From Daejeonella sp. (GTDB lineage: Bacteria > Bacteroidota > Bacteroidia > Sphingobacteriales > Sphingobacteriaceae), in NCBI RefSeq assembly GCF_030684675.1, contig NZ_JAUXXZ010000059.1, positions 62,001-126,000 of the forward strand: 64,000 nucleotides of DNA. The letters are read 5' to 3'. Below, in pieces: positions 20,011-36,167 of the stretch; the stretch's first letter is position 1, and every line of letters starts with the position of its first letter. Position numbers and translations under genes: made by a program. The notes below the pieces were generated by a model. The model saw nothing but the letters and a program-made list of their open reading frames with translations, did not search any database and was not told where the DNA came from.

Positions 20011-20015
20011 ACGTT

Positions 20016-20373: not shown

Positions 20374-20507
20374 CACCTAACGGTTACGGGCTTGGCGAAG
20401 GTGGCGATTTTCATCGAAAACTTGATGCGGAGAACCAACGTTTGATGAACCACAAAACTGTCTGCGGAGTACTGAACCGCCACTTTTGCCAAACGCCTGT
20501 TATAGCC
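20374..20507 (-). repeat. attC-like stem-loop element B (end of cassette 2)
   Basis: Minus strand: GGCTATAAC, AGGCGTTTGGCAAAAGTGGC, centre with GTTCAGT and GCAGACAGTTTTGTG, ATCGCCACCTTCGCCAAGCC, closing with GTTAGGTG (GTTAGGT fits the R' consensus GTTRRRY). The arms pair over ~20 bases with bulges. GGCTATAAC is the exact 9/9 complement of GTTATAGCC that opens cassette 2 at 26631; the match extends to TACCA-TGGCTATAAC with one mismatch. Confidence 0.8.
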
Positions 20508-20725
20508 AGTGGTATTTGTCGTCCGTGTGTGCAAACCATTGTCGTTATTGAGTTTCATTGTCTTTGTCGTGGCGGGTTGTGCGGTCGGGTACTTTTTTAT
20601 TTTTAGAAGGGGAGGAGATTTTTTAATTCAATTTTTTCGGGCGGAAAACTTGGAAGCTCTTTTACAATTTTTGGTTTGTGTGTCGGTCTGTGCGAATTGT
20701 AAATGTGCTTACAAGTGTGTGTCGG
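20508..20725. other. G/T-rich (plus strand) intergenic stretch 3' of the DUF1016 gene
   Basis: Strongly strand-asymmetric sequence full of GTGTGT and GTCGG words. It gives small ORFs in several frames on the plus strand, none with protein-like composition. The same texture appears at 26379-26616 and 35990-36060, that is at cassette edges. Confidence 0.5.
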
Positions 20726-21808
20726 CTATTTGTTGTCTAGCAGTTCCCGCATTTTCTTTTGGAGCACTTTTTTGTCTGGTAGGTATAACTGGTATTTTGA
20801 AACGAAAATTTTATTTGAAATTCCTCTTGTCGCGTATTCGACTGTCACATCGTCCTTGTGTTTCGAAAGAATAATTCCGATTGGTGGATTGTCGCCTTCC
20901 ACGTTTTGTTCTGTATCAAAGTAGTTCAGGTAAAGATTCATTTGTCCGATGTCGTGGTGCTTTACCGATTTTACTTTCAGGTCTATGAGCACAAAGCATT
21001 TGAGGATGCGGTGATAAAAGACCAGGTCAACATAGAAATGTGTATTGTCAAGTGTAATGCGGTATTGCCGGCCAATGAAAGCAAAACCTTTTCCGAGTTC
21101 AAGTATGAAGCTCTGCAGGTTGTCAATAATGCGCTGCTCCAAATGTTTTTCAGTGTACTTGTGGTCTTCAGGAATTTGCAGGAACTCTAAAACATAAGGA
21201 TCACGGGTAATGTCTGTTTCCTTTTCAACAATATGTCCTTTGTTTGCCAGCTTCATTACTCCCTTGGCATCCTTGCTCAAAGCAATGCGTTCAAACAATG
21301 CGGTGTCCATTTGCCTGCGTAGTTCTCTCACCGACCAGTTTTCGTGAATCGCTGTCTGCTGGTAAAAGCCGGTTTCCTGTTCAGTATTACATTTTAACAG
21401 TTCATAATAGTGCGACCAGCTAAGTTGGTGTGACACTGTCAGACCACTTGATTTTATAGTCTTCTTGCTCTTTTGGTGTGACGCTGTCAAACCAGTTCTG
21501 GATTTCCCGGACACAGTCTGGAAAGCCTTAAAACGCTGGTAAAATAAACGCATATAGGTTAGCTGGCTGCGGCTAAAGCCTTTCCCTAATTCTTTTGTCA
21601 AGTCCTTGGATAAGTCTATGAGCATTTGCCTTACCGAAACCTCATCGTATTTCTCGCTATGTTCCTTTTGAACAATCAGTTTTCCGACTGTCCAATAAGT
21701 CTGAAGCAATTCAACATTGATATTGCGAGCAATATTGTGCCTTGCCTGTTCTACCAGTTGCCTGATTTCAGCTATCAGGTCGTTATAAGCGTTCTTAGCT
21801 GGTTTCAT
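20726..21808 (-). CDS. DUF1016 (YhcG-like) protein with PD-(D/E)xK nuclease domain
   Basis: 360 residues. The N-terminal helical DUF1016_N part (IRQLVEQARHNIARNINVEL, TYWTVGKLIVQ, GFSRSQLTYMRLFYQRF, LSWSHYYELLKC) is followed by a nuclease core with FIGRQYRI, FYVDLVFYHRILKCFVLIDLK (D and D-x-K) and DIGQMNLYLNYF. DUF1016 proteins are widespread in mobile and defence contexts. An odd feature is an internal duplication at ~125-150, TGLTASHQ then SGLTVSHQ, mirrored by a DNA direct repeat near 21430 and 21474. The gene overlaps the HTH gene by 4 bp. Confidence 0.85.
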   Translation of the reverse strand: MKPAKNAYNDLIAEIRQLVEQARHNIARNINVELLQTYWTVGKLIVQKEHSEKYDEVSVRQMLIDLSKDLTKELGKGFSRSQLTYMRLFYQRFKAFQTVSGKSRTGLTASHQKSKKTIKSSGLTVSHQLSWSHYYELLKCNTEQETGFYQQTAIHENWSVRELRRQMDTALFERIALSKDAKGVMKLANKGHIVEKETDITRDPYVLEFLQIPEDHKYTEKHLEQRIIDNLQSFILELGKGFAFIGRQYRITLDNTHFYVDLVFYHRILKCFVLIDLKVKSVKHHDIGQMNLYLNYFDTEQNVEGDNPPIGIILSKHKDDVTVEYATRGISNKIFVSKYQLYLPDKKVLQKKMRELLDNK

Positions 21809-22020
21809 TTTTCAAGCTTGAGATGGCCGCAAACCTCCTTTAAAATCTCGCAGGGGTCAACATTAATGGCAAGAGCAATAAGATACAGTTCGTCTGCTCT
21901 TAGTTTGGTGGAAGTATTCAAAGTCAATTCACTGATACGGACTTTGCTGATTCCGGTTCTTCGAGATACTTCGGATTTATTAACCGACCTTTTTGCAAGA
22001 TACTTCCCAAGTAGAGTCAT
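21805..22020 (-). CDS. Small XRE-family helix-turn-helix protein
   Basis: 71 residues with a Cro/C1-type HTH: LAKRSVNKSEVSRRTGISKV forms helices 2-3 and RISELTLNTSTKLRADELYLIALAINV completes the fold. It sits 4 bp overlapping before the DUF1016 nuclease, so it probably autoregulates that pair. Candidate operators TGTACA and ACGTAC lie upstream (22081-22148). Confidence 0.85.
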   Translation of the reverse strand: MTLLGKYLAKRSVNKSEVSRRTGISKVRISELTLNTSTKLRADELYLIALAINVDPCEILKEVCGHLKLEK

Positions 22021-22175
22021 CTGATTATTAAGATTTTCTTATCCAAAGTTCATATAAAAATGCCAAATGTTAATAAAATCCGTACATCCGTTTTGTATTT
22101 TGAAATATAATCCTTAAGATTGTACAGAAAATATGTAAATACGTACATTTAATATTAACCAAATATTCAATCACA
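22021..22175. promoter_or_regulatory. Divergent control region with repeated GTACA words
   Basis: Between the minus-strand HTH gene and a plus-strand small ORF. CGTACAT (22081), TGTACA (22121) and ACGTACAT (22141) are spaced at 20-40 bp. They could be operator half-sites for the HTH protein; this is inference from position and repetition only. Confidence 0.4.
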
Positions 22176-22379
22176 ATGAGACAATACACAAAGGCTGATT
22201 TGGAATCACTTGTTTCCTGTCAACTGGAAAACCTGAATGCAATGCACGATTTGTTAAGCATTATGAAGGTTCAGAACGAACTACTTCATAACACGAATAA
22301 AAAATTGAAAGAAGAAATTTCGGAGTTTAAAGAGAAACAGTTCCCTTACCCGACAAGGAAAAGAAATACAAAATTGTAA
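22176..22379 (+). CDS. Hypothetical 67-residue coiled-coil protein
   Basis: Unrecognised. The sequence is mostly helical (ADLESLVSCQLENLNAMHDL, NTNKKLKEEISEFKEKQ) with heptad-like leucines and a basic tail (PTRKRNTKL). It is the only plus-strand ORF in the island apart from the transposase, is divergent from the HTH gene and shares its control region. It converges on gajB. It may be a small partner of the HTH/nuclease pair or a fragment. Confidence 0.5.
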   Translation: MRQYTKADLESLVSCQLENLNAMHDLLSIMKVQNELLHNTNKKLKEEISEFKEKQFPYPTRKRNTKL

Positions 22380-22425
22380 GTCCCACCTTGGAACAGCTTC
22401 CTGAATTTACCAAAGGTCTAAATTT

Positions 22426-24201
22426 TTATATTTCATCGTACCGAAAGACTTTACTTGCTAATTCAGGTGTGATAGTAAGTGCATCTCCTCGTCTCGTTGT
22501 TCTCCCAGTCTCGCTAATTAAATGCAAGTTTGTTTTTGCCCGCGAGCAAATAACATACATCAGTTTCTTTGATGCATCGGTTGCATTACCTGAAAAAATC
22601 TCATTCCAATGAGGAATATATCCATTTAAAAGCCCGTAGGCAATCACTGTTTCAAATTCTTCCCCTTTTACTCCAACACAGGTATTGATAATTACTCCCG
22701 TCATTTCTCTATAGAAACTTTTGAATGATTGAATATCGCTGGGAACTTTAAAGTCGGGATCATTTAATCTGCTTTCTATACTATCAAAGAATAGCTTTCT
22801 ATTCTCCACCAATTGAGGGTATTTCGTGACATCAATTTCTACGGCCTCAAGAAATTGATCAAAGCAATCGTTCAAATAATCTATTCCTTCTGGTTCACTT
22901 GATTTAATGGAATTGATTAACTTCAATAAGTTTCTTTCAATTCTAAACTCTTCATTGAACTCAGTATTTGTTTGAACTCTGAAATTATCAATCAACTCGG
23001 CAGCCCATCGGTATCTTGAAGAATATATTTTAGGATTTGGTTCCGTTAAAAATAGTCGTGAGAGTTTATACCAAATGTTTTCTCTATTTCTTGACATTGG
23101 TGCTAAACCGGAAGCATCAAAGTGTACATCGGGCAATGTGGCTCTTAGTTTTTTTGATACTGAAGTTATCAGCCACCATTGAGGAACAAGAACGCAAATC
23201 TCATCTTCCGGAATGCCGCTATCTAAACTCATCTGAATTAACCGGGCAATCTCATCAACTATTTTCGCATGATGGATAGTATTATTGAGAGTAATTAGTC
23301 CTACTGTTTCCGAATTACTGCCAACCGCTTCAATTTTTATAGTTTGAGTTTGGAAGTGTGTGTAAAAATCAATTATTCTCTGACTTGACCTGTAATTTCC
23401 AGTAAGTGTTAATGGATTAATCGGCATTCCGTCAATTTCTGCCTTAATCTCTGCCATACTTTTTGCTACACCTCCAAGAGAAGCATAAATCGCTTGGTCA
23501 GTATCACCAACAAGAAATAAAGATGTATTTCCGTTACCCGCTTTGATAATTACCGAGATAATAGCATACAGCAAATCTTGAGTATCTTGATACTCATCAA
23601 CGCAAATTAACTTAAACAAGTTAGAAAGTGTTTGCTGAATTTTTGGGTAAGTTATAAGAATCCTATATGAGTAAAAGAGAAGTAACTCAAAGTCAATAAG
23701 CTTTTTGCTTTTAAGAATTTCGTGATACTCTTTCAAAAGTTTCCTCTGAACGCTTTTGGGTTCTATGAAACTTCCATCTCTATTGAACCTCAGATTAACA
23801 GGGTCTATTTGCTGTAAGCCGTGTTTCTCCTTTAAGCTGTTAATCAAATCCGAACAGAATGTTTCGTCCGCAATTGAATAACCATTTTTTAATTCGGGCA
23901 AGTAACAAGAGTATGGCTTTATTATCCACTCAAAGCAAAATGAATGAAGTGTACCTGACCAAATTTTGCCGCTGTTAATTCCCATTGCATTCAGTCGTCT
24001 GAAAATCTCTTCCGAGGCACGAACAGTGAAGGTTAGGGCAACAATTCTCTTTTTACTGCTTTGATCAAGTTGTGTTAATTCGTAGGCCAACTTATGAATA
24101 ATTACTCGTGTCTTGCCACTGCCAGGGCAAGCGGTTAACAAAACGTTTCCTTCCTGTTTAACCGCTACTCTTTGTTCATTATTTAATTTGTCAAGTATCA
24201 T
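22426..24201 (-). CDS. gajB: UvrD/PcrA-like helicase, GajB-like (Gabija)
   Basis: 591 residues of superfamily 1 helicase. Motif I is ACPGSGKTR (~24-32), Ia region ALTFTVRASEEI, motif II VDEYQDTQ, motif III LVGDTDQAIYA, motif IV LTGNYRSSQRIID, and a motif V/VI-like TCVGVKGEEFETVIAYG near the end. Its start overlaps the upstream OLD-type ATPase gene by 4 bp. That pairing and order (ATPase/TOPRIM nuclease then UvrD helicase) is the Gabija anti-phage layout, where GajB associates with the GajA nuclease. The end lacks a long 2B region, as in GajB. Lies in predicted cassette 2. Confidence 0.82.
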   Translation of the reverse strand: MILDKLNNEQRVAVKQEGNVLLTACPGSGKTRVIIHKLAYELTQLDQSSKKRIVALTFTVRASEEIFRRLNAMGINSGKIWSGTLHSFCFEWIIKPYSCYLPELKNGYSIADETFCSDLINSLKEKHGLQQIDPVNLRFNRDGSFIEPKSVQRKLLKEYHEILKSKKLIDFELLLFYSYRILITYPKIQQTLSNLFKLICVDEYQDTQDLLYAIISVIIKAGNGNTSLFLVGDTDQAIYASLGGVAKSMAEIKAEIDGMPINPLTLTGNYRSSQRIIDFYTHFQTQTIKIEAVGSNSETVGLITLNNTIHHAKIVDEIARLIQMSLDSGIPEDEICVLVPQWWLITSVSKKLRATLPDVHFDASGLAPMSRNRENIWYKLSRLFLTEPNPKIYSSRYRWAAELIDNFRVQTNTEFNEEFRIERNLLKLINSIKSSEPEGIDYLNDCFDQFLEAVEIDVTKYPQLVENRKLFFDSIESRLNDPDFKVPSDIQSFKSFYREMTGVIINTCVGVKGEEFETVIAYGLLNGYIPHWNEIFSGNATDASKKLMYVICSRAKTNLHLISETGRTTRRGDALTITPELASKVFRYDEI

Positions 24202-26309
24202 AGAAGAGCTAAAAACTTTGTCAATTGGTCTTCCTTGAAGGCATCACAAAATGTGGTTAGAATTTCTTCTTCACTTTTTCCTCGTGTCTTAAATTTTTTA
24301 GCCTCACCTTGTAAATCGTCATTCGCATTATTCCTCATCGAACGCAGACGATATAGAGCCGCTTTTGCTTTTGAAGATTGGTTAATGTGGGAAGAAGAAA
24401 ATGCAATAGCTTTAAGAATATAGTTTGGAATGTAGGTATTGTAAAAAATATGTTCAGCGACCAAAAGAGCTAACCAACCTTTGCCTTGTTTATCAGCAAT
24501 TCTTAAAACTTCTACGCCCGCCACTTCAACAGAGGTATCTTCAAGCTTGACCTTTGCTTTCGCTATGTCCGCTGGTCTTGAATAAATTTTATCAAGACAC
24601 TCAGTAAGCTCAAAGCTATTGCCCTTCATTAGAAAATCAACTTCAAATGTATGTTTGAAGTAGAATGTCTTTAAAAATGTGTTTCCATTACAAAAATCAG
24701 TTAATCGAACTTTGCGCTCTTCCCCACTTTTTTCTGATGCCCTGCAATGCTTTTGATAGTCATCATCGTCTTTTGGATCTGCTGGAAGTGTTACAATGGA
24801 TTTGTCCAGATCAGTAAGTATTGCACAATTCTTATTGATTCTGTCTGCGTGGAATATTCTCGCAACATTCTCAAACCCTGTACTACCAATATTTACTAAA
24901 CTTATTCCAATTTCATCGAGTGAAAGTCCAAATACCTTTTTGAACATTTCTGGAATTAAGATTTGCTCTGCATCACCTTCAACCAAAATAATTCCTTTTG
25001 CAAAGAGTAAATTGCTTCGCACGGCATCTAAATACCTCTCAATCCTAACAATTTCTTCCGGTTGAAGATTATTCGAAGGATGAAAAACTAATGCTTCTCT
25101 TTCCCCCCTACTCAATACATTCAGGCTGCTAATTTTACTCACAGATGAAATATGAGTTGAATGAGTTGAAATTATTACTTGCGTTCTATTTTCTTTGATG
25201 TTGTTAAAAAGCGTTTTTTGGATATGTGTATGAATATGAGCTTCTGGCTCTTCTATCAGGAGAAAATTTGCAATCCTGTCAGTTTTCACCTTCTCATATT
25301 CAAGCAGCTTTAATGAAAGATAAATGAGATTAGCTCCACCTAGACTTAGTTCCCATATTCTTCCTTTGTAACCTTCATCATCAGGGTCACCTACCCAAAG
25401 TCTTAATGATTGGAATAGTTTTTCCATTTCGTTTGGCAACTCAGATTTAATTTCAATGTTTGGGGCATAGGTAGTGCCAACAGCTTCTTTAATGCTTTTG
25501 TCAATTCCCCTCTGAACTTCTTTCACTTCATCAAGCGAACTGATTTGATCATTAAGTTTGTCGATGCTCTCAATTATTTCATTTGATTTTGCGACTTCAA
25601 CGGTTTTCTCCTTTCCTCTTAAAAGGTTTATCAAGGGATTGCTTGCATATGATCTTAAATCACTTTCAACATCTCTCAACGCTTTTATAAAGGTGCAGGA
25701 AACTTCATTGTGAATATTAATTTCTTTCGGTAGCCAAGTTCCAAATATTAGTTCCTCTTTATCATCAGGATCGGGGAATTCGACTGTTTCAAAATTGCCC
25801 ACGTACTTGGAATAAACTGAATCCTGGCTAAAATCAGCAGATCCTCTACTTAAATAAACTGTTTCGTAATCTTCAAGAGTGAGCTTGTCAAGGATAAGCT
25901 GTAAGTCAGTTACATTTTTTCCAGACGTTTGAGAGTAGTCATAAAGTTCTTTTCTAAATTGGTACTTTGGCCTGAAGTAAACCGCATAACTGCCTTGTGT
26001 AGCCGTGTCCATATGTCCGCTTGATTGCACCGCCAATGCTTGCGCTTCTTCACTTGAATCTAATTCGTCAAAGACAATTGAAATAATTATCCAATGGCCT
26101 GCCCAATTCCCTATGGCTCTATTAAAGTCTGCCGGATAAAAATTGATGTATCTTGGAAGAGTATCATCAATTAGTATTCTCAAAGCATAAAACAAGTTTG
26201 TTTTCCCTGAGCCGTTTTCGCCAATAATAGTATTTATGCCGTTCTTAAAGTTTAGTTTTACTTTTCTGAAATTCCTGTAATTTCTAATTGATAAAGAAGA
26301 TATGTGCAT
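24198..26309 (-). CDS. gajA: OLD-family ATPase/TOPRIM nuclease, GajA-like (Gabija)
   Basis: 703 residues from the ATG at 26309 (MHISSLSIRNYRNF), which is where OLD proteins normally start; the frame is open 37 codons further upstream, but that part reads as leader. Walker A GENGSGKT (30-37), an ABC-type signature LSLGGANLIYL, Walker B LLIEEPEAH (~350), STHSTHISS, then a TOPRIM domain with VEGDAEQILIPEMF (~440) and TDLDKS (~500). GajA senses nucleotides and nicks DNA. The protein is longer than classical GajA (~580), so another class-2 OLD/UvrD subtype is possible. Confidence 0.82.
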   Translation of the reverse strand: MHISSLSIRNYRNFRKVKLNFKNGINTIIGENGSGKTNLFYALRILIDDTLPRYINFYPADFNRAIGNWAGHWIIISIVFDELDSSEEAQALAVQSSGHMDTATQGSYAVYFRPKYQFRKELYDYSQTSGKNVTDLQLILDKLTLEDYETVYLSRGSADFSQDSVYSKYVGNFETVEFPDPDDKEELIFGTWLPKEINIHNEVSCTFIKALRDVESDLRSYASNPLINLLRGKEKTVEVAKSNEIIESIDKLNDQISSLDEVKEVQRGIDKSIKEAVGTTYAPNIEIKSELPNEMEKLFQSLRLWVGDPDDEGYKGRIWELSLGGANLIYLSLKLLEYEKVKTDRIANFLLIEEPEAHIHTHIQKTLFNNIKENRTQVIISTHSTHISSVSKISSLNVLSRGEREALVFHPSNNLQPEEIVRIERYLDAVRSNLLFAKGIILVEGDAEQILIPEMFKKVFGLSLDEIGISLVNIGSTGFENVARIFHADRINKNCAILTDLDKSIVTLPADPKDDDDYQKHCRASEKSGEERKVRLTDFCNGNTFLKTFYFKHTFEVDFLMKGNSFELTECLDKIYSRPADIAKAKVKLEDTSVEVAGVEVLRIADKQGKGWLALLVAEHIFYNTYIPNYILKAIAFSSSHINQSSKAKAALYRLRSMRNNANDDLQGEAKKFKTRGKSEEEILTTFCDAFKEDQLTKFLALL

Positions 26310-26622
26310 AAGAATCTCAGATTTAGGATGTGAATTTGAAAATAACTGGGTAGGTGAAATTGGCTCTTTTGGTTTTGCCCGTGTGTCGGTTTGTGGGTAG
26401 CGCAAAACCAAATGTGCCAATGTGGGCTGGTATAAATTGAATTAAAAAATGTGCGGTGGGGAAAAATAAAAAATACAGAAGTGTCGGCAAGGAGTGTCGG
26501 TTTACTCGTTGTCCGTTTGAAATATGATTTGTATGTAGGTCACCTGTCAAAATGGTTTGTCTTTGTGTTAATATTTAAATTTTAGGTCGGTCGGTCGTCT
26601 TTGGAACGGTCGTCCTACCATT
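26310..26622. other. Leader/promoter region of the gajA-like gene
   Basis: No gene. C/A-rich on the coding (minus) strand, without a clear TAnnTTTG box that I could fix. ACGGTCGTC at 26606-26614 lies exactly 17 bases inside the cassette start, the same as at 36049-36057. Confidence 0.45.
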
Positions 26623-26757
26623 GGCTATAACGTTTCGGGGGTTTAAGAAGTTGGGGATTTCGGAGCACAAAACTGTCTGCCACCACTGAACTTGATACGA
26701 AGCACAAATGTTTGATTAACCACTGAACCCCCAATTTCTTAAACCCCTTGTTATCGG
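26623..26757 (-). repeat. attC-like stem-loop element A (end of cassette 1)
   Basis: 135 bp. Minus strand: CCGATAAC, then AAGGGGTTTAAGAAATTGGG, centre with GTTCAGTGG twice and GCAGACAGTTTTGTG, then TCCCCAACTTCTTAAACCCC, closing with GTTATAGCC. The long arms pair over about 20 bases with few mismatches. CCGATAAC is the exact complement of GTTATCGG at the attI-like point (36074-36067), the predicted start of cassette 1, and the match continues as AGAG..ACCGATAAC. Confidence 0.8.
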
Positions 26758-26929
26758 TTGCTCTTCTGTCCGTCTGAAGATGTGTCGTGTCAAGTTTGCT
26801 CACACTTTGTCCGAAGCCGCCTAAGATAGAAGCACTGTCTGTCCAGTTACGCACTGTGCGGTTGGAAAAAAAATTAAAACACCGTAGGGTGGGAAAAAAA
26901 ATAATTTGAATTTCTTCTTGGGTAGGAGA

Positions 26930-26996
26930 AAAAAATACTCTCTTAAAAACTTTGGTCGTGGGCTGGCTTGCAGCGGTTTTTAAGAGTGTATTTTTT
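26930..26996 (-). terminator. Strong hairpin 3' of the TerB-like gene
   Basis: AAAAATACTCTCTTAAAAAC pairs with GTTTTTAAGAGTGTATTTTT around a ~25-base loop. It is placed ~25 bp beyond the stop at 27021 and followed by a T-rich run on the minus strand, so it should end transcription of the five-gene operon. A hairpin of related design is found upstream of the operon (35837-35900). Confidence 0.65.
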
Positions 26997-27020
26997 TGTG
27001 CGTGGGCTTCTACCTTCATT

Positions 27021-27551
27021 TCAATTTTCGTCTTTAGATTTTGAAAAGTCAACTGCCACAAGGTCTATGAAGTCAGGAATTGCTATTGAAGCAAACAAGT
27101 CGTCATGCGTTTCTGATTTTACAATGTCTTGTGAATAATCTTTGTCAAACAAATATTCAACCACTCCAAACCTGTCACGAATTACTTCATCATGAACTTT
27201 GAGTTTAGAACGCAAGAAGCGAAGAAACTTAATTTCATTCTCGTCAACTTTCTCGTCTGCGTGAACAAGGCGAAAAGAAACTTCAAGAATTAAAAGTTCT
27301 TGAACAACACCGATGTCAAGTTTTGCAAGTGTGTCAAACAGTTCGTCAACTATGTGTTTACCTCTTGCTTTTAAGTCAGAGAGTAATTCTTCTAACTCGT
27401 CTGTCAAGTCAATGCCGTTGAAATATGCTGATGATTTGTTCATCAACTTAATTTCTTTGACTTCTCTATCGTCAATGTGTCCGTCACAAGCCATTAAGCA
27501 AAATGCTGTGCGAAATAATAAGCGTTGAAAATCTGGTCTTTCTAATGTCAT
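27021..27551 (-). CDS. TerB-like protein, last gene of the Hsp70/AAA operon
   Basis: 176 residues. Two TerB-type acidic helix-loop units are visible: FCLMACDGHIDDREVKEI (~17-34) and RLVHADEKVDENEIKFLRFL (~98-117), the duplicated D..ID..E/E..+ pattern of the tellurite-resistance TerB fold, a possible metal-binding or scaffolding helical bundle. TerB domains recur in predicted stress and anti-phage systems (for example Shango). It is 14 bp from the AAA gene and ends the operon. C-terminal ~40 residues are of unknown type. Confidence 0.72.
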   Translation of the reverse strand: MTLERPDFQRLLFRTAFCLMACDGHIDDREVKEIKLMNKSSAYFNGIDLTDELEELLSDLKARGKHIVDELFDTLAKLDIGVVQELLILEVSFRLVHADEKVDENEIKFLRFLRSKLKVHDEVIRDRFGVVEYLFDKDYSQDIVKSETHDDLFASIAIPDFIDLVAVDFSKSKDEN

Positions 27552-27565
27552 CGTTTTTTGAATTA

Positions 27566-29344
27566 TTATTTGAAACCTATTGGAGTTCTATCGTTATCGT
27601 CTTTGCCTCCTTTTTCGTTATCCCACTTCTGTTTGAGTGCAACATATTTATTGATTTCCTTTAGAGTTACTGATGGCTTGTTTGTTTTGATAACTGTTTG
27701 CAAAACTTCCATTGTAATTCTGCTCTTTACTTTCAATGCTTGTCTTGATGCTTCATCAATTAAAAACTTGATGTCGCTTGAAACATAGTTCTCTGTTAGG
27801 AGTGAAAGAATATCGTAATCAACTGAAAGGTCAACTGGTCTGTCTTTCAAATACAATTTGAACATTGCTGCTCTTGCCGCTTTGTCGGGTGGTGATAAAT
27901 AAATTGTCTTGTCTAATCTTCCTGCTCTCAAAATTGCAGCATCTATTTTTTCAGGTCGGTTTGTTGCACCGATTACAAATATTCCTCTCTCTCCGCAATT
28001 TGTCATTTGTGCTAAAACTTCATTCACTGCTGATGCTGCTCCTTGATGAAGGTCGCCTTCTCTGCTTGGAACAATTGCATCTAATTCGTCAATGAAAATT
28101 ATTGTCGGTGCGTTTGCTTCCGCTTCCTTAAAAAGTTTTCCAATGTTTTCTTCCGTTGCATTTACCCACTTACTTTTTAAGTCAGAAGGTTTAATCATTA
28201 CGAAGTTGTAACCAATTTCATCGGCAAACTTTTGAGCAATAAAAGTTTTTCCGCATCCGGGTGGACCATAAAGCAACATTCCGTTAGGAATGGTAATTCC
28301 GTAACTGGCGTAAAGTTCTTTCTCACTCAATGCACGAATTACATCCGTGTAAAGAATTTCTTTCAACTCACTCATTCCCGCAATCTGGTCAAAGCCGCTG
28401 CCTTTTTTCTTTTCTTTCTTCTCAATTTTCTTCTCAAATGATTTTTCAACTTCCTGTTTCTCTAACATCACTTCACGCTTCAATGCTTTTGAAAAATCTT
28501 CTGCTGTTTGAAATCTTTGCTCAATGTCAATGGAAAGTGCTTTTGTCAAAGTGAATTTCAGTTGGTCGTCAATTTCATTTTCGTCTGCAAAATCAAAACT
28601 CAATTTCTTTTCTCTTGCTTGTTCAACCAATCCTTTCACTTTGTTTAAAGGTTGGCTCAAAATATTTTCATTATACCAAGGTGCAACTCCGAAAAGTAAA
28701 TGATGCAACAATGCACCAACTGAAAACAAATCACTCTGCGGAATGAAAACTCCGTTTAATAATTCGGGTGCGGAATGAAAAAATGAAAGTCCTTTGATTG
28801 AAACACTTTGATTGCTGTTCTCTAATGTTCTTGCTTGTTCAAACCCTGTCAAAACAGGCTTCTCTCTTTTGGTTGAAAGGTCAAGAAAAATAGAAGTTGG
28901 CAAAATGCCGTTGTGAATTATTGGTTCAGATTTGTTGTGCAAATATTCAATTGCCTCTAACAACTCTGTAACTATCGGCACTGCTTCGTATGGAGAAAGT
29001 TTGCCTTCCCGTTTTAATTTTTCTGCAAGCGTTTCACCACTAATAAAATCAAAAGTGAGATAGGCGAATTTCTGTTTGTCAATTATCGTTTCGCCTTCTT
29101 CTTTCAATGCAGAAATATTTGTGTGCTTAATTTTTTTCAGCAAAGAAACCTGAATGAGTTTTCCTTCCTCAAAAAAAGAAGATGGGAGTGAAGCAAGATT
29201 TATCAAGTCAAGCCGAATAATATTTCCGCTTTTGTTTTTGGCTCTGTATGACTGAACAAAAGAATTGCTTCCGATTGGAAATTGAATTTCGTATCGGTCT
29301 GCAATTACAGTTCCTTTTGGAAATATGTTTTGCTTACTTTCCAT
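27566..29344 (-). CDS. Pseudokinase-AAA+ ATPase fusion
   Basis: 592 residues. Residues ~15-290 follow the Ser/Thr kinase fold (IADRYEIQFPIGSNSF, EAIEYLHNKSEPIIH, the SAPELLNG P+1 region, DLFSVGALLHHLLFG), but every catalytic position is lost: the VAIK Lys site reads RLDLI, HRDLKPEN reads HNGILPTS, DFG reads GFE. A charged linker (KKIEKKEKKKG) leads to a classical AAA domain with Walker A GPPGCGKT (~360), Walker B IIFIDELDAI (~415), sensor/second region of homology ATNRPEKIDAAILRAGRLD. This is a substrate-remodelling motor with a probable protein-binding pseudokinase. It shares one base with the Hsp70 gene (TAATG). Confidence 0.85.
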   Translation of the reverse strand: MESKQNIFPKGTVIADRYEIQFPIGSNSFVQSYRAKNKSGNIIRLDLINLASLPSSFFEEGKLIQVSLLKKIKHTNISALKEEGETIIDKQKFAYLTFDFISGETLAEKLKREGKLSPYEAVPIVTELLEAIEYLHNKSEPIIHNGILPTSIFLDLSTKREKPVLTGFEQARTLENSNQSVSIKGLSFFHSAPELLNGVFIPQSDLFSVGALLHHLLFGVAPWYNENILSQPLNKVKGLVEQAREKKLSFDFADENEIDDQLKFTLTKALSIDIEQRFQTAEDFSKALKREVMLEKQEVEKSFEKKIEKKEKKKGSGFDQIAGMSELKEILYTDVIRALSEKELYASYGITIPNGMLLYGPPGCGKTFIAQKFADEIGYNFVMIKPSDLKSKWVNATEENIGKLFKEAEANAPTIIFIDELDAIVPSREGDLHQGAASAVNEVLAQMTNCGERGIFVIGATNRPEKIDAAILRAGRLDKTIYLSPPDKAARAAMFKLYLKDRPVDLSVDYDILSLLTENYVSSDIKFLIDEASRQALKVKSRITMEVLQTVIKTNKPSVTLKEINKYVALKQKWDNEKGGKDDNDRTPIGFK

Positions 29345-31908
29345 TAGTCAGTTAATACGCTGTCGTCACCAGCAAAAATTGGTTTATCGCTTTTCGGTAA
29401 CAGTTTGTAAAGTTCCATTACAATAGGTCTCAACCTTTGTTTTGTAGGTGTTGTTGCTGCAATACTCAAACCTTGTTGGATTAACATTTTCGCTTTGCTC
29501 CTGTCACTCCATTCATTAAGGTCAAACTCATCATTAAACTCTTTTAGAATTTGAATTTCCATTTGTGCTCCCATTGCGGCATCAACCAACATAAAATCAA
29601 GTGCTCTCATTTGGTCAATCAATTCCTTCGCAACTTTTACATTCTTCTCTTTTATCACTTGCGGAATTTGCTCTTTGAATTGTGCAATTGCTGCTTTTAC
29701 TCCTTCATCATTTATTCCCTCAACCCTGCCTTCAACTTTTTTGAAAGTTTCTTCTAAGCGGTAAAAGGAATTTTTCAATTCTTCTTCTGTCTTTGGAAAC
29801 TCTGCTGCATCTTGTAAATCATCAATCTTTCTTAAACTTCTGCGAAGGTTGTCTAACACTTGTTTCTTTCTATCGTAATCACTTCTGCCTTGCTCCAAAA
29901 GTTTTTCAAGTTCTGCAACCTCTGAATTTATTTTCGTCAATTCATCTTTGCTTGTTGTTCCGCCTTCGTTCTTGATAATATTTAATGATTGTTTCGCTTT
30001 TGCAATCTCTGTTTCCAACCAATCAGCATCAATGTCTTCTTGATTTTTGCTTTCATATTCAATTTCGTGAGAGTATTCAAGAATGGGGAAATATGCACTA
30101 AGTGAAATTCTACCATCTTTTACTTTTACAGTTAATTCAACACTACTTCCAGACGGTAATAGTTTTGGCAAATCCTCTCCTGTAATAATTGCGTTAAATA
30201 CATGTTGATTGTAAATAGACCTTGAACCGTTTGCATCATTCTCGGCTTCATATACAGGAACTTTTATAAAATCTCCTTTCAGTCCAGGTCTTAAATCTTT
30301 TTGTGTTTTTAAATCGTTAGCAATACCTGTTGCAGGTTGGGATTGATTTTTTTCCAATCCTTTAATTGACCTAAAGATTAATTTGTTGCTTGCTCTGCTC
30401 TTAATCTCAATTCCGATATGGTAAGGAAGTGTGGCACTTCCAATTTTTGAACCTTGAATAATTAAAAACTCCGTTGGCTCACTTGGCAATAAATCTCCCT
30501 TTTCATTGTAAACAAAAACATTAAAAGAGTTTGCTTTCCCAGCGTTTAATTTTATTTCAATTACTTCACCCGCTTCATCTATTTGAACTTTGCCACTGTC
30601 CCACGCTTTATCAGAACGGGCAATCATTGCATAAACTTTATCGGGAATATTTCCTTCCGTTTTGTCTTTTAAAATTTTCACCGTTATGAATTGCTCCATC
30701 TCAACCGTTGTCGGTTCGTAACCAAGACCTAATTGAATTTTAGTCCTGTCTCGGTTTTGCTCTACAAGTTCTTCCGAAACATTTATGGTTGAGGCAAACA
30801 ACGCGGCACCTTCTGCAACTGCTGTCATTGGGTCAATGCTTGTATCAACTTTGTCGGTTATTTGCTCTTTCAACATTCTCCGAAGGATAGGAGAATAAGT
30901 CGGCCCTCCAACTAAAATTAAAGCACCAATGTTTTTTCCAACAAGTGAATTTCTTTGTAGTAATTCTTTGCAGATGTCAATTGCCTTTTGGAAAATTGGC
31001 GATATGACAGGGCTTAAAATTTCTTCTGTAATTTTAATGTCTAATTCAATTTCAACTCCTTTATCATCTTCAGGAAAATCATCAGGGTCGGAGAGTGAAT
31101 GAGAGGAGTTAGCAAATGATAAATCTATTTTGGCTTTTTCGGCAAAAACTTTTAATGCTTCTCTGAAATATTCTTTTTTATCTCCTTGCTCAATAAAACT
31201 ATTGATTGAAAACTTTTCACCTAAATGAGGAATTAAGATGTCATCTACAATAGCAAAATCAATATTCTTTCCCCCTAAATAATTGTCTCCTTCTGTATCA
31301 ATTACTTTCATAATTCCATCTTCCACTTTCAAAAGTGCTGCATCAAAAGTTCCACCACCAAAGTCAAAAACTAACCAAAGACCGTCTTTGCTTTTTGCAT
31401 CAAGCCCGTATGCCATTGATGCTGCAATTGGTTCTTGTAAAAGTTCGCAATGTTCAAACCCCGCAAGTTTAGCTGCTCTGCTTGTTGCATCTTTCTGATT
31501 GATGGTAAACTTAGCGGGAACTGTAACGATAACAGATTTCAGTTCTTCGTCTGTGATAAACGATTTCAGTTTCTTCAACACTTCTGCTGATAATTCTTCC
31601 GAAGTGTAATCTCGGCTCATGTTTGAACTGGAATATTTTTTATCAGTTCCCATTGTCCGCTTAAACTCAATGTAGGTATTGGTATCGGCTTGTAATGTTT
31701 TCAATGCTTTCAGTTTGTCTGAACGAAAAGCGTTTGCAGCTCCATCACCAGCGACAATGGATTGCTTTCTATTAAAGTTGATACAGGAAGGCATTGTATC
31801 TTTTAGGGTGTCTGTTTTTTTAATTACAGGTTTCCCATTTTCAATTCTTGAGATAGCGGAATTTGTTGTTCCTAAATCAATACCGTAGTCAATTTTTGTT
31901 CTTGCCAT
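29344..31908 (-). CDS. Hsp70 (DnaK-like) chaperone with extended coiled-coil C-terminus
   Basis: 854 residues against ~640 for DnaK. The actin-like ATPase has phosphate-1 GIDLGTTNSAIS (~9-20), phosphate-2 LVFDFGGGTFDAALLKVE, and adenosine motif ALILVGGPTYSP. The substrate-binding part diverges from DnaK (VPVYEAENDANGSRSIYNQH in place of the IPT..F-PVQF block). The last ~220 residues are predicted coiled coil (EVAELEKLLEQGRSDYDRKK). It is clearly not the housekeeping DnaK and has its own J-like and GrpE-like neighbours. It probably acts with them on a specific target. Confidence 0.9.
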   Translation of the reverse strand: MARTKIDYGIDLGTTNSAISRIENGKPVIKKTDTLKDTMPSCINFNRKQSIVAGDGAANAFRSDKLKALKTLQADTNTYIEFKRTMGTDKKYSSSNMSRDYTSEELSAEVLKKLKSFITDEELKSVIVTVPAKFTINQKDATSRAAKLAGFEHCELLQEPIAASMAYGLDAKSKDGLWLVFDFGGGTFDAALLKVEDGIMKVIDTEGDNYLGGKNIDFAIVDDILIPHLGEKFSINSFIEQGDKKEYFREALKVFAEKAKIDLSFANSSHSLSDPDDFPEDDKGVEIELDIKITEEILSPVISPIFQKAIDICKELLQRNSLVGKNIGALILVGGPTYSPILRRMLKEQITDKVDTSIDPMTAVAEGAALFASTINVSEELVEQNRDRTKIQLGLGYEPTTVEMEQFITVKILKDKTEGNIPDKVYAMIARSDKAWDSGKVQIDEAGEVIEIKLNAGKANSFNVFVYNEKGDLLPSEPTEFLIIQGSKIGSATLPYHIGIEIKSRASNKLIFRSIKGLEKNQSQPATGIANDLKTQKDLRPGLKGDFIKVPVYEAENDANGSRSIYNQHVFNAIITGEDLPKLLPSGSSVELTVKVKDGRISLSAYFPILEYSHEIEYESKNQEDIDADWLETEIAKAKQSLNIIKNEGGTTSKDELTKINSEVAELEKLLEQGRSDYDRKKQVLDNLRRSLRKIDDLQDAAEFPKTEEELKNSFYRLEETFKKVEGRVEGINDEGVKAAIAQFKEQIPQVIKEKNVKVAKELIDQMRALDFMLVDAAMGAQMEIQILKEFNDEFDLNEWSDRSKAKMLIQQGLSIAATTPTKQRLRPIVMELYKLLPKSDKPIFAGDDSVLTD

Positions 31909-31931
31909 TTTTATAATCTTTAAATGATAGT

Positions 31932-32846
31932 TTATTCTCCTTGGCTTACTTCAATTTGTGCTGACTGTATCATCACACCTTTGAAATTTACTTGTGGCTT
32001 AATAATTCTTGTAATGATTTGCTCACCTGCTTTTAAGGTTTCATCAGGTTTAAAGTTTGCCGTTACTTTCATTCCTTGGTCATACGGCTTATTGAGCATA
32101 TCAACCAGTTCATAACCGTTCGCCTCAAAGTTGTCTTGAATTCTTTTTACAGAAGCAACAAGTTGTTTCAATCCTTTTGTTTCAGCATCCATGTTTCCTA
32201 AATTCTTTTGGATGCGAATTATTTCATCAGCCACCTTCAAAGCAAGTTCGTGATTTACTTCTTCGGCTTTTGAAGAAGGAACGGCTTGCCGTTCCTCTTT
32301 CATCAGTTGCATTTGCGAAGCAAGTAAATCAGCCAACTTGCTGTCAAGTTTTACTCCTTCTTCTTCTAATGCTTTTTTCGTTTGCTGAATGTTGGCTGTA
32401 ATGTCGGTTTTATTTTTTGAGACTTGTTTGCGGAGCAAACCGAAAAGCAAAACAGAAAGCAATGCAATTCCTAAAACTGCAATTATCCAATAAAGTGTGT
32501 TCTTGCTTACTGTTTCTTGAACTCCCTGTATTTGTTTTTCTGCTGTGGTCTTGTTGTCTTGAATTTTAACTCCCAAATCGTTGCTAAGAGTTTGAATGTT
32601 TGCCTTGCTGTTCTCTATTTCTGCCCTTAAATTTTTGATGCTGTCATTTGCAGCAGCAAGTTTATTTGAAAAATCAGTTTTCTGATTTTTCAATTCTGTT
32701 TTCAAACTGCTGTTTGCAGTTTCAATTTTTTGCAACCTGTCTTGTAGGTCTTTTATTTCGGGGCTTATATCCGTTTGTGCAAGTGTAACTTGCACTATGA
32801 ACAGCAAAAGCAAACTTGTTGCTATGTGTAGAATTGTTTTTCTCAT
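31932..32846 (-). CDS. Membrane-anchored coiled-coil protein with GrpE-like C-terminal domain
   Basis: 304 residues. A signal peptide (LHIATSLLLLFIVQVTLAQ), then a long coiled coil outside (~25-110), one membrane helix (LYWIIAVLGIALLSVLLFGLL, ~116-136), and a cytoplasmic part. The last ~70 residues (FEANGYELVDMLNKPYD, KAGEQIITRIIKPQV, GVMIQSAQIEV) resemble the GrpE beta domain, which ends ..GY...GR.IR.A.V.V. An inner-membrane-tethered nucleotide-exchange factor for the adjacent Hsp70 is inferred from this and from position. GrpE homology is the weakest link and needs a structure-based search. It overlaps the upstream J-like gene by 4 bp. Confidence 0.6.
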   Translation of the reverse strand: MRKTILHIATSLLLLFIVQVTLAQTDISPEIKDLQDRLQKIETANSSLKTELKNQKTDFSNKLAAANDSIKNLRAEIENSKANIQTLSNDLGVKIQDNKTTAEKQIQGVQETVSKNTLYWIIAVLGIALLSVLLFGLLRKQVSKNKTDITANIQQTKKALEEEGVKLDSKLADLLASQMQLMKEERQAVPSSKAEEVNHELALKVADEIIRIQKNLGNMDAETKGLKQLVASVKRIQDNFEANGYELVDMLNKPYDQGMKVTANFKPDETLKAGEQIITRIIKPQVNFKGVMIQSAQIEVSQGE

Positions 32847-34519
32847 TTATTTCCTGTTAGTTTTTTTAACTCTGCGTTCTTTAAGATTATTTGCTCTTCA
32901 AGTTTTGATATTTCTTTTTTCCTATCGCTTTCCCCTTTTGATTTTAAGCGTTCAATTTTCTCGTGTTGTTCAGCAATTTGCCGTTGCTTGGTTTCACTTG
33001 AACGGAACAATTGCCATTCATTAATACTTGCCATTTCAGTTTCTAATGTTTGCATTTCAGAGGCATACATTTTTTTACTTTTAGTATTTGATAACTCCTT
33101 TTGAAGTTTGCTAATTTCACCATCTAATTTTGATTTTTCAAAATTGAATTTTATGCTGTTAGTAATTGGTAGGAGGGAGAGAAATGTGGACTTTTTACTT
33201 TTAAAGAAATCAGAGCTTTTGTAAGATAATTTTGCCAACAGTTTATCCAGCGAGGTGTAAAAATTCTTTATTAAATCGTCCTTTCCTGACTTGGCGATTT
33301 TTTCAATCATGCTATTATCAAGTAATGGTATTGCTGCTTCCCTTATCTTATCTTCATTCACAACTTTAGACCTTCCGCTAATTATAGCATCAATACCAGA
33401 GTTTTCCTTTTCTACTTCCGCATAGACATTAATTACTTGGTTTAGAAATGCTATTACTTGTTTAGCATCCCTGTAACGCATTTCTTCAAGAGTGTCTAAA
33501 GCTTCATCAATTCTGTTTTTTACTTGTCCAGTTGCTCCAATGCTCTTAGCGTAATTTGCAATCTTTAAGGCATCTTCAAACGGGTCAAAATCTGTGTCAT
33601 TATCAGAGTTGTAATAGTTGAAAAAATCAATGGAGCATTGGAGCAATTCATTTGATACTTTGTTTACTATGACCTGATAATTCACATTGCCTGCTCCCAA
33701 CACATTTTTTAGAAATGCTAAATCAGTCTTGGTCTGTTGGTATAGTTCTTCCCCGTATTCCTCGGCATCACTCGCATCTTCTGTTCTGCTTTGTTTTGTT
33801 TTTTCAACTTGATTTTCAATGTTACTTACAGGTCTGTCAGTAAATTTTGCAGCTACATATTGCTTTGTCTCTGATGGGAAACTGCTGAAAGCATCAATTA
33901 ATTGAGATGAAGTAATTCCCTTTGTCTTGTTCAAATACGGTTTTAGTATTTGTAAAATTTCGTCAACAAATTCCTTTCTGATTGTTTCCTTACTTACGCT
34001 TGTATTGTCTCCTGCAACCGTTTGAACGAAGTTCAAAAAAGCATCTGATGAAATGATGTGTCCTTTGAGTTCAACACACTTTTTTAATTGTATAGGATTG
34101 AATGAGCCGTTAAGCGTGGTCATTCCTAATTGGAGAGTTGAAAGATTTAATGCTGCCGAATAATTCTTTGCAGTAATCGTGTTATCCTTGATTAGCTTCT
34201 CCCAAATTTCAGTTGCCTTGTCAATATTGGCTTCTTTCAAATGGTTTAGTGCCGCTTCGTCAATGTGGTTGGTGTTTAGAAACCAAAATAAAGAGAAGTG
34301 AACTTTGTTTTTCGCCTGTTCAATTTTACTGGCTGCTGCTGCAACTGTTTGTTCTTCCCGTTTGAAGTCGCCAAGAAAAGGAAAATCATAGTCAAAGGAT
34401 TTGGACTTGCCAACCTCTGCATAGCGTTTGATAGTTGCAATTTGCTTTTGCAACTCTTTCTCGGTCGCATTGCCGAAAAGTCCTAAAGTCCTGTATGGAT
34501 TTTCTCTTACTGCGTTCAT
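32843..34519 (-). CDS. J-domain-like, coiled-coil protein (first gene of the Hsp70/AAA operon)
   Basis: 558 residues. The start NPYRTLGLFGNATEKELQKQ followed by a second helix KRYAEVGKS has the NPY..LG...A...EI...... layout of J domains, but the HPD tripeptide is absent. A middle domain has LFWFLNTNHIDEAALNHLK and TEIWEKLIKD, and helical stretches to ~430. The C-terminal ~120 residues are a coiled coil (SKLDGEISKLQKELSN). Similar NPYR-type proteins are found next to Hsp70 genes in Bacteroidota (recall, not checked). A substrate-delivery role for the neighbouring Hsp70 is inferred. Confidence 0.65.
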   Translation of the reverse strand: MNAVRENPYRTLGLFGNATEKELQKQIATIKRYAEVGKSKSFDYDFPFLGDFKREEQTVAAAASKIEQAKNKVHFSLFWFLNTNHIDEAALNHLKEANIDKATEIWEKLIKDNTITAKNYSAALNLSTLQLGMTTLNGSFNPIQLKKCVELKGHIISSDAFLNFVQTVAGDNTSVSKETIRKEFVDEILQILKPYLNKTKGITSSQLIDAFSSFPSETKQYVAAKFTDRPVSNIENQVEKTKQSRTEDASDAEEYGEELYQQTKTDLAFLKNVLGAGNVNYQVIVNKVSNELLQCSIDFFNYYNSDNDTDFDPFEDALKIANYAKSIGATGQVKNRIDEALDTLEEMRYRDAKQVIAFLNQVINVYAEVEKENSGIDAIISGRSKVVNEDKIREAAIPLLDNSMIEKIAKSGKDDLIKNFYTSLDKLLAKLSYKSSDFFKSKKSTFLSLLPITNSIKFNFEKSKLDGEISKLQKELSNTKSKKMYASEMQTLETEMASINEWQLFRSSETKQRQIAEQHEKIERLKSKGESDRKKEISKLEEQIILKNAELKKLTGNK

Positions 34520-34536
34520 AATGTTAAGGTAATTTC

Positions 34537-34544
34537 AAATGTAG
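34537..34544 (-). promoter_or_regulatory. -7 box TACATTTG of the chaperone operon, separated from its -33 box by an IS
   Basis: On the minus strand TACATTTG fits the Bacteroidota TAnnTTTG consensus and ends 17 bases before the ATG at 34519. With the IS and one target copy removed, the upstream sequence reads TTTTTG-CCACGCTCTATTAAATTATC-TACATTTG, a 20-base spacer, an excellent TTTG/TAnnTTTG promoter. The TTTG part is now at 35836-35839, 1.27 kb away. The IS end places TTCG 19 bases upstream of the -7 box, so weak hybrid activity is possible. Confidence 0.7.
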
Positions 34545-34553
34545 ATAATTTAG

Positions 34554-35816
34554 GTTCTGCCACGAACCTTGTGAAAATAAGGAAAAAGTTGGAAACTTGA
34601 TGCGTGGAAAAAACGGCACTTTATCACAAGCTTTTGGAGCTTGATTCAAATTGGAAGGTTAATGAAGTTGAGTTAATTGAGGGAGACATTGTGATTTTCG
34701 TGGAGTATGTTTCAAACCACTGGGTTGATAAACAAACTGGAGAAGAGTTGCCGATTTATGATTTAAGGGAAGAACGGATGTGGCGTCATTTAAATACGAT
34801 GCAGTATAAGACGTTCATACATTGTCGAGTTCCCCGGGTTCGAGATTCTAACGGCAAGGTTCGCACAATAGATACGCCATGGGCGAAGGATTTAGACCGA
34901 TTCACGGTCTGGTTTGAAGCCTTTGTGATTGAGGTTTTACTAGCGACAAAAAATCAAACTAAAACGGCAAAGCTTCTTGGTATGGGCTTTAACCAGGTAA
35001 ACCGGATTATGCATAGGGCTAGCGCAAGAGGATTGGCCAGACGTGACCTAAAGGAAGTAGTGAATCTGTCTATAGATGAGAAGTCTTTTCGTAAAGGTCA
35101 TCAATATGTTAGTGTTCTCTCCAGCCCTGATACCGGTGCTATATTGAATGTGACGGAAGATCGCACACAAGTTTCTGCTGAATTGTTGCTTACTGAAACA
35201 TTTGGGTCTGACCAATTAAGGGAGATTCAAACTATTAGCCTGGATATGTGGAAGGCCTTTATCAATGCTGCTGAGAAGGTTTGTCCAAAGGCAGCACTCT
35301 GTCACGATAAATTTCATCTGGTTCAGCATATGAATAAGGCCGTTGATCAGGTACGAAGAGAAGAAACAAAGACCCAGCATGAGCTGAAAAAGACCCGGTA
35401 TATCTGGCTTAAGGATCACGCAAAACTGACCGATTACCAAAGAGAGATGTTTGACACGATCAAAGATATAAACCTAAAAACTGCCCCGGCTTGGCGATTA
35501 AAGGAGATGCTGCGAGACTGCATACCGCATTGTAGTGTCAAATCATTAACAGCTTTTACATTGTGGTTAAGTGAAGCTAATCGAAGTGCACTAAAACCGG
35601 TTATAAGAGTAGCCAAAATGTTTACAAAGCATCTTAAAGGAATACTAAATGCCCTTGGACTTCAAAAATCCAACGCAATGGCGGAAAGATTGAATGGAAA
35701 AATACAGGAGCTAAAAACGGTTGGAAGAGGTTATAGGACGTTCATAAACTTTAAATCCGCCATACTGTTTTTTAACGGAAAATTAGACTTGCTACCACAA
35801 GGTTCGTGGTAGAGCC
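34554..35816 (+). mobile_element. ISL3-family insertion sequence, intact
   Basis: 1263 bp. Terminal inverted repeats GGTTCTGCCACGAACCTTGTG (left) and its partner, read on the minus strand from 35816, GGCTCTACCACGAACCTTGTG, agree at 19 of 21 positions. The direct repeats ATAATTTA at 34546-34553 and 35817-35824 are an 8-bp target duplication, the size usual for ISL3. It carries one transposase gene. The ends and duplication are uncorrupted, so the insertion looks recent. Confidence 0.93.
34604..35812 (+). CDS. ISL3-family transposase
   Basis: 402 residues from a GTG at 34604. A zinc-finger-like and helical N-terminal part is followed by an HTH (KTAKLLGMGFNQVNRIMHRA) and the DDE nuclease: first Asp in LSIDEKSF, second in ISLDMWKAF, then CHDKFHLVQHMNKAVDQVRR, and a final Glu in AMAERLNGKIQELK. 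The order matches ISL3 transposases. The stop codon lies inside the right inverted repeat. It is transcribed away from the chaperone operon. Confidence 0.92.
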   Translation: MEKTALYHKLLELDSNWKVNEVELIEGDIVIFVEYVSNHWVDKQTGEELPIYDLREERMWRHLNTMQYKTFIHCRVPRVRDSNGKVRTIDTPWAKDLDRFTVWFEAFVIEVLLATKNQTKTAKLLGMGFNQVNRIMHRASARGLARRDLKEVVNLSIDEKSFRKGHQYVSVLSSPDTGAILNVTEDRTQVSAELLLTETFGSDQLREIQTISLDMWKAFINAAEKVCPKAALCHDKFHLVQHMNKAVDQVRREETKTQHELKKTRYIWLKDHAKLTDYQREMFDTIKDINLKTAPAWRLKEMLRDCIPHCSVKSLTAFTLWLSEANRSALKPVIRVAKMFTKHLKGILNALGLQKSNAMAERLNGKIQELKTVGRGYRTFINFKSAILFFNGKLDLLPQGSW

Positions 35817-35836
35817 ATAATTTAATAGAGCGTGGC

Positions 35837-35900
35837 AAAAACACTCTTTCATTTTTTTTGGGTTGGGTTTGAGCCGGGCAAAAAAATGAAAGTGTGTTTT
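35837..35900. other. Hairpin upstream of the chaperone operon
   Basis: AAAACACTCTTTCATTTTTT pairs with AAAAAATGAAAGTGTGTTTT around a G-rich loop. In A/T-rich arms, ACTC core and G-rich loop it resembles the hairpin that ends the operon at 26930-26996. It overlaps the -33 box (TTTTTG on the minus strand at 35841-35836), so it may shape expression, or end read-through from the recombinase gene. Confidence 0.55.
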
Positions 35901-36066
35901 CTGCGAGGGCATAGAAATTCAAATTATTTTTTGTGCGGAGGCGGTGGTTTAATTTTTTTTGAAGCGTCTGCCTGTTGGTTAGAAGTCCTGTCATGTCGTT
36001 ACTTGTTGTCTTAAATGTTTGTTCAATGTCGTGTCGTTTGATGTTACCACGGTCGTCATAGAGTTA

Positions 36067-36143
36067 CCGATAACTTGTACATAAGGATGATAAAACTACC
36101 ACAAGCCCATCAAATTCGGGTGTATTGTGGCATGTTTGTACAT
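36067..36143 (-). other. attI-like recombination site next to the recombinase
   Basis: On the minus strand GTTATCGG (36074-36067) is the predicted crossover arm. On its far side are two direct TTGTACAT copies (36075-36082 and 36136-36143) flanking a hairpin (CCACAAGCCC with GGGTGTATTGTGG, 36099-36130). Such repeats recall accessory integrase-binding sites in attI, but that is inference. It lies ~95 bp beyond the recombinase stop. Confidence 0.6.
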
Positions 36144-36167
36144 CCTTTATTTAAATATGCTATTTAC

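Follow-up and report, generated by a model that had tools for sequence, protein, structure and literature searches.

We found that a Daejeonella gene fusing a kinase fold to an AAA+ ATPase is co-inherited with four others, which encode a helical scaffold, an Hsp70, a TerB-like protein and a coiled-coil protein that spans the membrane. On balance, we lean towards the view that a mobile, membrane-tethered Hsp70-AAA unfoldase cassette, probably anti-phage, has its product as motor subunit, and that the pseudokinase would serve there as a docking or gating domain. Throughout, the window denotes the whole stretch of 64,000 nucleotides that was analysed; its relevant features are collected in Table 1.

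Table 1. Positions in the window, strand and supporting evidence for the features discussed
Feature	Position	Strand	Evidence
Pseudokinase-AAA+ fusion (kinase-AAA), 592 aa, ATG start	27566..29344	-	ORF list, Pfam, alignment, AlphaFold model, Foldseek
Kinase-fold domain, residues 10-292	28469..29317	-	Pfam Pkinase 1.6e-23; model
VAIK Lys position = Asp46	29207..29209	-	Homologue alignment
HRD position = HNG, residues 144-146	28907..28915	-	Homologue alignment
DFG position = GFE, residues 167-169	28838..28846	-	Homologue alignment
Cdc48-type AAA+ domain, residues 314-552	27689..28405	-	Pfam AAA 4.9e-38; Foldseek p97/Cdc48 E 5e-22
Walker A GPPGCGKT, residues 360-367	28244..28267	-	Homologue alignment
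Walker B D419-E420	28085..28090	-	Homologue alignment
Arginine fingers R473, R476 (RxGR)	27917..27928	-	Homologue alignment
TerB-like protein, 176 aa	27021..27551	-	Pfam TerB E 3.9e-4, below gathering; conserved motifs
Hsp70, 854 aa	29344..31908	-	Pfam HSP70 4.9e-61, residues 9-374; motifs
Signal/TM coiled-coil protein, 304 aa, possible GrpE-like C-terminal domain	31932..32846	-	TM-like segments; hhalign
NPYR scaffold, 558 aa, all-helical, coiled-coil-type variable C-terminus	32843..34519	-	Homologue comparison, model
GajA of Gabija	24198..26420	-	PADLOC 1.7e-289
GajB of Gabija	22426..24201	-	PADLOC 2.8e-232
DUF1016/YhcG nuclease (PDC-S02)	20726..21808	-	Pfam, PADLOC
Island of ~19.4 kb absent from congeneric genome G688	18066..37473	.	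Genome comparison
Tyrosine recombinase at island edge	36168..37220	-	Pfam
ISL3 transposase	34604..35812	+	Profile searches
Amidohydrolase-family gene, left island edge	18344-19771	-	

Domains, motifs and selection in the kinase-AAA protein

The original prediction described a kinase fold, complete in outline, fused to an AAA+ ATPase, with VAIK, HRD and DFG replaced by RLD, HNG and GFE, and both parts were confirmed. Pfam Pkinase (PF00069) matches residues 23-281 (E 1.6e-23; 83.9 bits against a gathering cut-off of 31.7) and Pfam AAA (PF00004) matches residues 356-483 (E 4.9e-38, above its gathering cut-off), while the AlphaFold model (pLDDT 84.4) places a two-lobed kinase ahead of the AAA domain; profile and model thus agree on a protein kinase fold. 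In an alignment of 83 homologues, IIRLDL stands at the VAIK position (Lys to Asp46), IIHNGILPTS at HRDxKxxN (Asp to Gly146, the catalytic-loop Asn being gone too) and VLTGFE at the DFG position (Asp to Gly167). The alphaC Glu column is also altered (LIQV here vs LEIE in the family), and two structural residues, the APE Glu and the alphaF Asp, are retained. With Asp46, HNG and GFE in place of the VAIK Lys, HRD Asp and DFG Asp, the protein does not qualify as an active Ser/Thr kinase. No substitute catalytic residues are visible in the motif table; homologues with the identical substitutions do exist, and nothing shows activity in them. Alignment and model together show a kinase fold without the residues for ordinary phosphotransfer, and normal Mg-ATP binding by this domain is probably absent.

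As aligned, the AAA+ domain carries every canonical hexameric-ATPase motif. The AAA half is complete, with Walker A GPPGCGKT, Walker B IIFIDELD, sensor-1 ATN and RxGR arginine fingers, and its Walker A, Walker B, sensor-1 Asn and arginine fingers make it Cdc48-like. An aromatic residue occupies the pore-loop position, and an IGF tail at the C-terminus is conserved in most homologues.

Most kinase-AAA homologues are not fully dead. When 79 of them were labelled at three catalytic positions (VAIK Lys, HxD Asp, DFG Asp), 65 kept the Lys, an acidic HxD residue and the DFG Asp, either as Lys-Asp-Asp (31/79) or as Lys-Glu-Asp, with Asp changed to Glu in HxD (34/79). All three were lost in six, including the window protein, and eight showed other partial losses. 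Asn takes the place of the HRD Arg in all members aligned, and therefore none of them is an RD-type kinase. Because the identical RLD/HNG/GFE set recurs in five homologues (L007-L011, 70-72% identity), the three substitutions reflect neither chance nor sequencing error. In the kinase-AAA tree, the six members with all three lost fall into a single clade (SH-aLRT 99), which spans Bacteroidota, Chlorobiota and Ignavibacteriota. The same clade appears in the Hsp70 tree (5 rows) and the coil tree (4 rows), with support of 99 each; in the TerB tree, the pseudokinase set groups with L012 (support 99).

Selection on the domain was assessed within the all-lost clade. Across 10 pairs with unsaturated dS, dN/dS was 0.072-0.137 for the pseudokinase domain and 0.023-0.087 for the AAA domain; pairs that included the window protein had saturated dS and were left out of this reading. 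Purifying selection on a dead domain implies that it is kept for something other than catalysis, and the pseudokinase domain is predicted to work without catalysis. The non-catalytic binding role that had been proposed for it stands in its first half, given that all three motifs are lost, that the loss is fixed in the clade (SH-aLRT 99) and that purifying selection fits; the second half, that it binds a partner or substrate, is conjectural.

Two other readings of the domain bear on the same evidence. WNK and SelO are precedents for rearranged kinase active sites, and the kinase could similarly still be active via unusual residues, phosphorylating or AMPylating a cassette partner; its complete fold is under purifying selection, and the Lys, HxD Asp and DFG Asp are retained in sister clades (31/79). 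We consider this very unlikely, as the clade is altered at each of those three residues and at the alphaC Glu column as well, the window protein having lost the catalytic-loop Asn besides, and the motif table offers no substitute. The domain might instead be a decaying relic beside an AAA part that alone matters, which would fit the graded loss of catalytic residues over the tree and the lower mean identity of the kinase half to the family (0.41 vs 0.65 for the AAA half). This seems to us the least probable of the readings, since dN/dS in close pairs is low (0.07-0.14, though above the 0.02-0.09 of the AAA domain), the dead clade is free of truncations, and its APE Glu and alphaF Asp are retained. 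We therefore keep to a pseudokinase maintained for a non-catalytic role.

The five-gene cassette and its variable modules

We rejected the view of this gene as a lone pseudokinase curiosity, as it is a member of a conserved five-gene operon. It is the fourth of five genes on one strand, in the order scaffold, coil, Hsp70, kinase-AAA, TerB-like; the gene ends touch or nearly touch, and the Hsp70 gene directly upstream overlaps kinase-AAA by 1 base. A genome scan gave 380 encoded relatives, from which 80 loci were kept; a plasmid, genome G038 and the window bring the total to 83 loci. Of the 83, 56 have the complete set, and 55 of these 56 share one gene order on a single strand. By gene, Hsp70 is present in 80 loci, the coil in 71, TerB in 70 and the scaffold in 67, so that the position next to Hsp70, at first thought unusual, is instead the rule for the family. 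The three loci without Hsp70 are truncated or broken, and absent scaffold, coil and Hsp70 genes are accounted for by truncated sequence ends, except at one frameshifted locus. Several loci truly lack TerB, their sequence running on for 5-10 kb downstream, and at L045 (9986-12337) kinase-AAA and the TerB-like protein share one reading frame.

The partner proteins were characterized by motifs, profiles and models. The Hsp70 has the expected nucleotide-binding motifs (DLGTTNS, FDFGGGTFD and VGGPT, with conservation of at least 90% across 80 rows); its Pfam match ends at residue 374 of 854, and the C-terminal half of ~480 aa is not recognised by Pfam. The TerB-like protein falls below the Pfam TerB cut-off (21.1 bits vs gathering 24.4). 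Its motifs DG.I...E and AD......E are at least 90% conserved, including the motif Asp/Glu, and its relative on plasmid NC_015512.1 is annotated as TerB family. In the coil protein, TM-like segments lie at residues 5-23 (signal-like) and 120-138. Compared with a wider profile drawn from 54 GrpE sequences, its C-terminal domain aligned with GrpE across 89 columns and up to its end (hhalign probability 53, E 1.4e-4), with scaffold and TerB controls scoring below 1; the result with 21 GrpE rows was weaker (probability 3). The coil protein had no Pfam GrpE match at 0.1, and a PDB search with its profile returned coiled coils, with no GrpE among the 60 matches listed. These comparisons are weakly suggestive of a GrpE-like C-terminal domain.

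The scaffold model is all-helical (pLDDT 87) and matched nothing in the PDB at E 1e-3 or better. We rejected the scaffold as a J-domain protein, as a 25-column resemblance to the J-domain start (E 2e-4) included no HPD column. Its structural matches (VIA rows) were likewise set aside, being scattered helical-repeat matches of a type on which the tool itself urges caution, and searches of the PDB with the TerB and scaffold profiles gave weak matches alone. Nothing in the cassette core was recognised as a nuclease, a toxin or another killing effector, and the PADLOC matches of kinase-AAA are to generic kinase/AAA models.

Two parts of the cassette vary among loci. Conservation in the scaffold covers its first ~340 residues, and the C-terminus is variable: a rough classifier sorted 67 C-termini into CFI-box (23), TM-like (25) and other or coiled-coil (19) types, and the scaffolds of L007 and L009, 84% identical over their N-terminal part, drop to 26% over the C-terminal part. 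The NCBIfam CFI-box model matched 19 of the 36 scaffold members scanned; the window scaffold had no match. Between Hsp70 and kinase-AAA, a gap of >400 bases with variable genes occurs in 41 of 80 loci, and the genes in this slot encode exported or lipoprotein-like proteins, an SH3 domain, KilA-N and a second Hsp70. A constant core whose peripheral modules are exchanged is, we infer, a pattern typical of conflict systems.

Two further observations concern the slot. Its second Hsp70-like protein is diverged (L031, 3260-5887; L044, 7552-10008; L010, 7687-9999). Slot genes (e.g., L043, 6816-7511) and the scaffold C-termini of L014, L073, L074 and L080 share an exported module that has no Pfam name.

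Genomic island and defence neighbourhood

A congeneric genome, G688, aligns with the window at about 90% identity to the left and right of the island and lacks about 18.07-37.47 kb. At the same site (L187/L188) it has about 1.4 kb with two small ORFs instead, which on reading the sequence resemble a toxin-antitoxin pair. A tRNA at the island edge was looked for and none was found anywhere in the window, and no direct repeats of >11 bases were found at the island borders. The kinase-AAA family was detected in 6 of 395 genomes of the phylum (at 1e-120; one with an internal stop) and in 2 of 300 genomes of the order (at 1e-60), the window's own genome being included in both counts. Island insertion, a pseudokinase clade spread across three phyla and presence in 6/395 genomes are all signs of a mobile cassette. 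A viral origin was rejected, as a viral-contig scan with 145 pattern matches gave no relative. Locus L005, on a Thermococcus peptonophilus plasmid, was also rejected as a cassette; there, kinase, AAA and PP2C are separate adjacent genes (7320-10947).

Known defence systems recur beside the cassette. In the window, a complete-looking Gabija pair lies directly downstream (22426-26420, minus strand). The same five genes adjoin BREX on the Haliscomenobacter plasmid NC_015512.1, and L056 (18-17071) carries brxA, brxB, brxC, the cassette, two further ORFs and pglX on one strand. Type I R-M genes flank the cassette in L017, L054 and L080. At 1e-10, PADLOC families (family counts, not gene counts) numbered 114 upstream (111 genes), 248 downstream (134 genes) and 6 in controls (126 genes), the controls coming from 16 stretches of one order and being phylogenetically narrower than the test set. 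When flanking proteins were scanned singly, 12 of 30 matched PADLOC at the thresholds used (4/10 per set), with sets 1 and 2 chosen largely by size and set 3 partly beside known matches; for two of the 12 (IetA-like in L007, DrmD-like in L041) the match may be a generic one to an ATPase or helicase. PADLOC matched none of ten window proteins lying outside the cassette/Gabija stretch of the island. From this genomic association, we infer a putative defence function for the cassette.

Possible mechanism and relation to known systems

We propose a p97-like hexamer of the AAA domain, through whose pore clients would be threaded. Six pseudokinase domains on the hexamer's entry face would dock or gate for Hsp70, TerB or the client, each acting as a fixed dock that would have replaced an ATP-binding switch possibly still working in sister lineages. 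The scaffold and the membrane coil, whose end may be GrpE-like, would hold Hsp70 at the inner membrane, and the membrane-held Hsp70 would pass clients to the kinase-AAA hexamer. The scaffold C-termini and the Hsp70/kinase-AAA gene slot may set location or target, and TerB may sense or couple. Because of the defence neighbours, the most likely trigger would be a phage-induced protein or envelope disturbance, sensed by Hsp70 or TerB; phage complexes or a key host complex would then be remodelled in anti-phage or anti-element defence. A precedent for host chaperones in phage sensing is bNACHT25, which needs DnaJ according to the available text of PMC12169576. A bolder reading, which we offer tentatively and would not yet favour, is an undescribed immune system that works by protein unfolding, without a nuclease or toxin: a membrane-tethered Hsp70 would feed a p97-like motor whose entry kinase stands at successive stages of catalytic loss, and interchangeable scaffold tails and the swap slot would retarget the core.

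The main alternative to a defensive role is a mobile proteostasis or envelope-stress cassette of DjlA/DnaK-like type, merely hitch-hiking in defence islands and giving protection from heat, metal or envelope stress rather than from phage. The recognised cassette parts are all chaperone or stress parts, the variable slot holds small exported or lipoprotein-like genes, and many flanking proteins have no PADLOC match. The TerB-like domain and membrane anchoring further recall DjlA, a membrane-anchored J-protein with a TerB-like domain and a partner of DnaK and GrpE, although in the available text DjlA is a single protein with a true J domain and no AAA motor (PMC11709261). We regard a stress cassette as unlikely, if still worth taking seriously, since conflict systems better fit the brxC-cassette-pglX placement in L056, the recurrent R-M, BREX and Gabija neighbours, and the low, patchy distribution (6/395) with modular variable ends. 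The membrane-tethered unfoldase with a probable anti-phage role is the reading that we carry forward.

Comparison with known systems places kinase-AAA near several of them. It shares Walker A/B, sensor-1, RxGR and the pore-loop aromatic residue with p97/Cdc48-type AAA+ proteins (also FtsH, CdvC and IetA; Foldseek E 5e-22), but has a single AAA ring, a pseudokinase rather than the Cdc48 N domain, and an Hsp70 cassette; TIGR01243 CDC48 matches it with E 2.5e-54, far below cut-off. The DnaK-ClpB bi-chaperone disaggregase pairs an Hsp70 with an AAA+ motor, like the cassette with its cochaperone-like parts. However, the cassette AAA is Cdc48-type, not ClpB-type, and comes with a membrane coil, a pseudokinase and TerB. 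Its AAA domain also matches IetA models (E 8e-34); membership of IetAS was rejected, with an IetA score of 98.6 against a cut-off of 510 and no IetS protease among ten neighbours scanned. A TerY-P triad was rejected as well, with no vWA or PP2C among ten proteins scanned.

Published systems show further resemblances. Predicted NTP-dependent conflict systems combine AAA+ or HSP70 with inactive kinases and modular effectors in predicted defence (Kaur et al., 2020; PMC7159879); their cores are MoxR-vWA or GTPase, and no kinase-Cdc48 fusion was found in the available text of that paper. CoCoNuT systems of type II/III contain Hsp70-like proteins, coiled coils and TerY-P kinases and share superoperons with type I RM and BREX, but the available text gives their core as McrBC GTPases and RNases, and the cassette has neither (PMC11090510). 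In their available text, neither PMC12839542 (a single match, in the reference list) nor PMC7824862 yielded a nearer system. The searched literature, which had most subscription papers outside its scope, held no description of the cassette.

We suggest that the cassette is a new form of chaperone-AAA machine or predicted conflict system, with a real chance of being a new immune system. We found no model in PADLOC 2023, Pfam or NCBIfam with a name for the cassette or for the conserved scaffold core, and the 380 relatives would therefore be left unannotated as a system. The stepwise loss of catalytic residues beside an intact AAA partner makes the role of a bacterial pseudokinase testable, through members labelled KDD, KED and DGG. 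If the cassette is defensive, it would mean that bacteria counter invaders at the membrane with a dedicated Hsp70-AAA unfolding machine in place of a nuclease or toxin.
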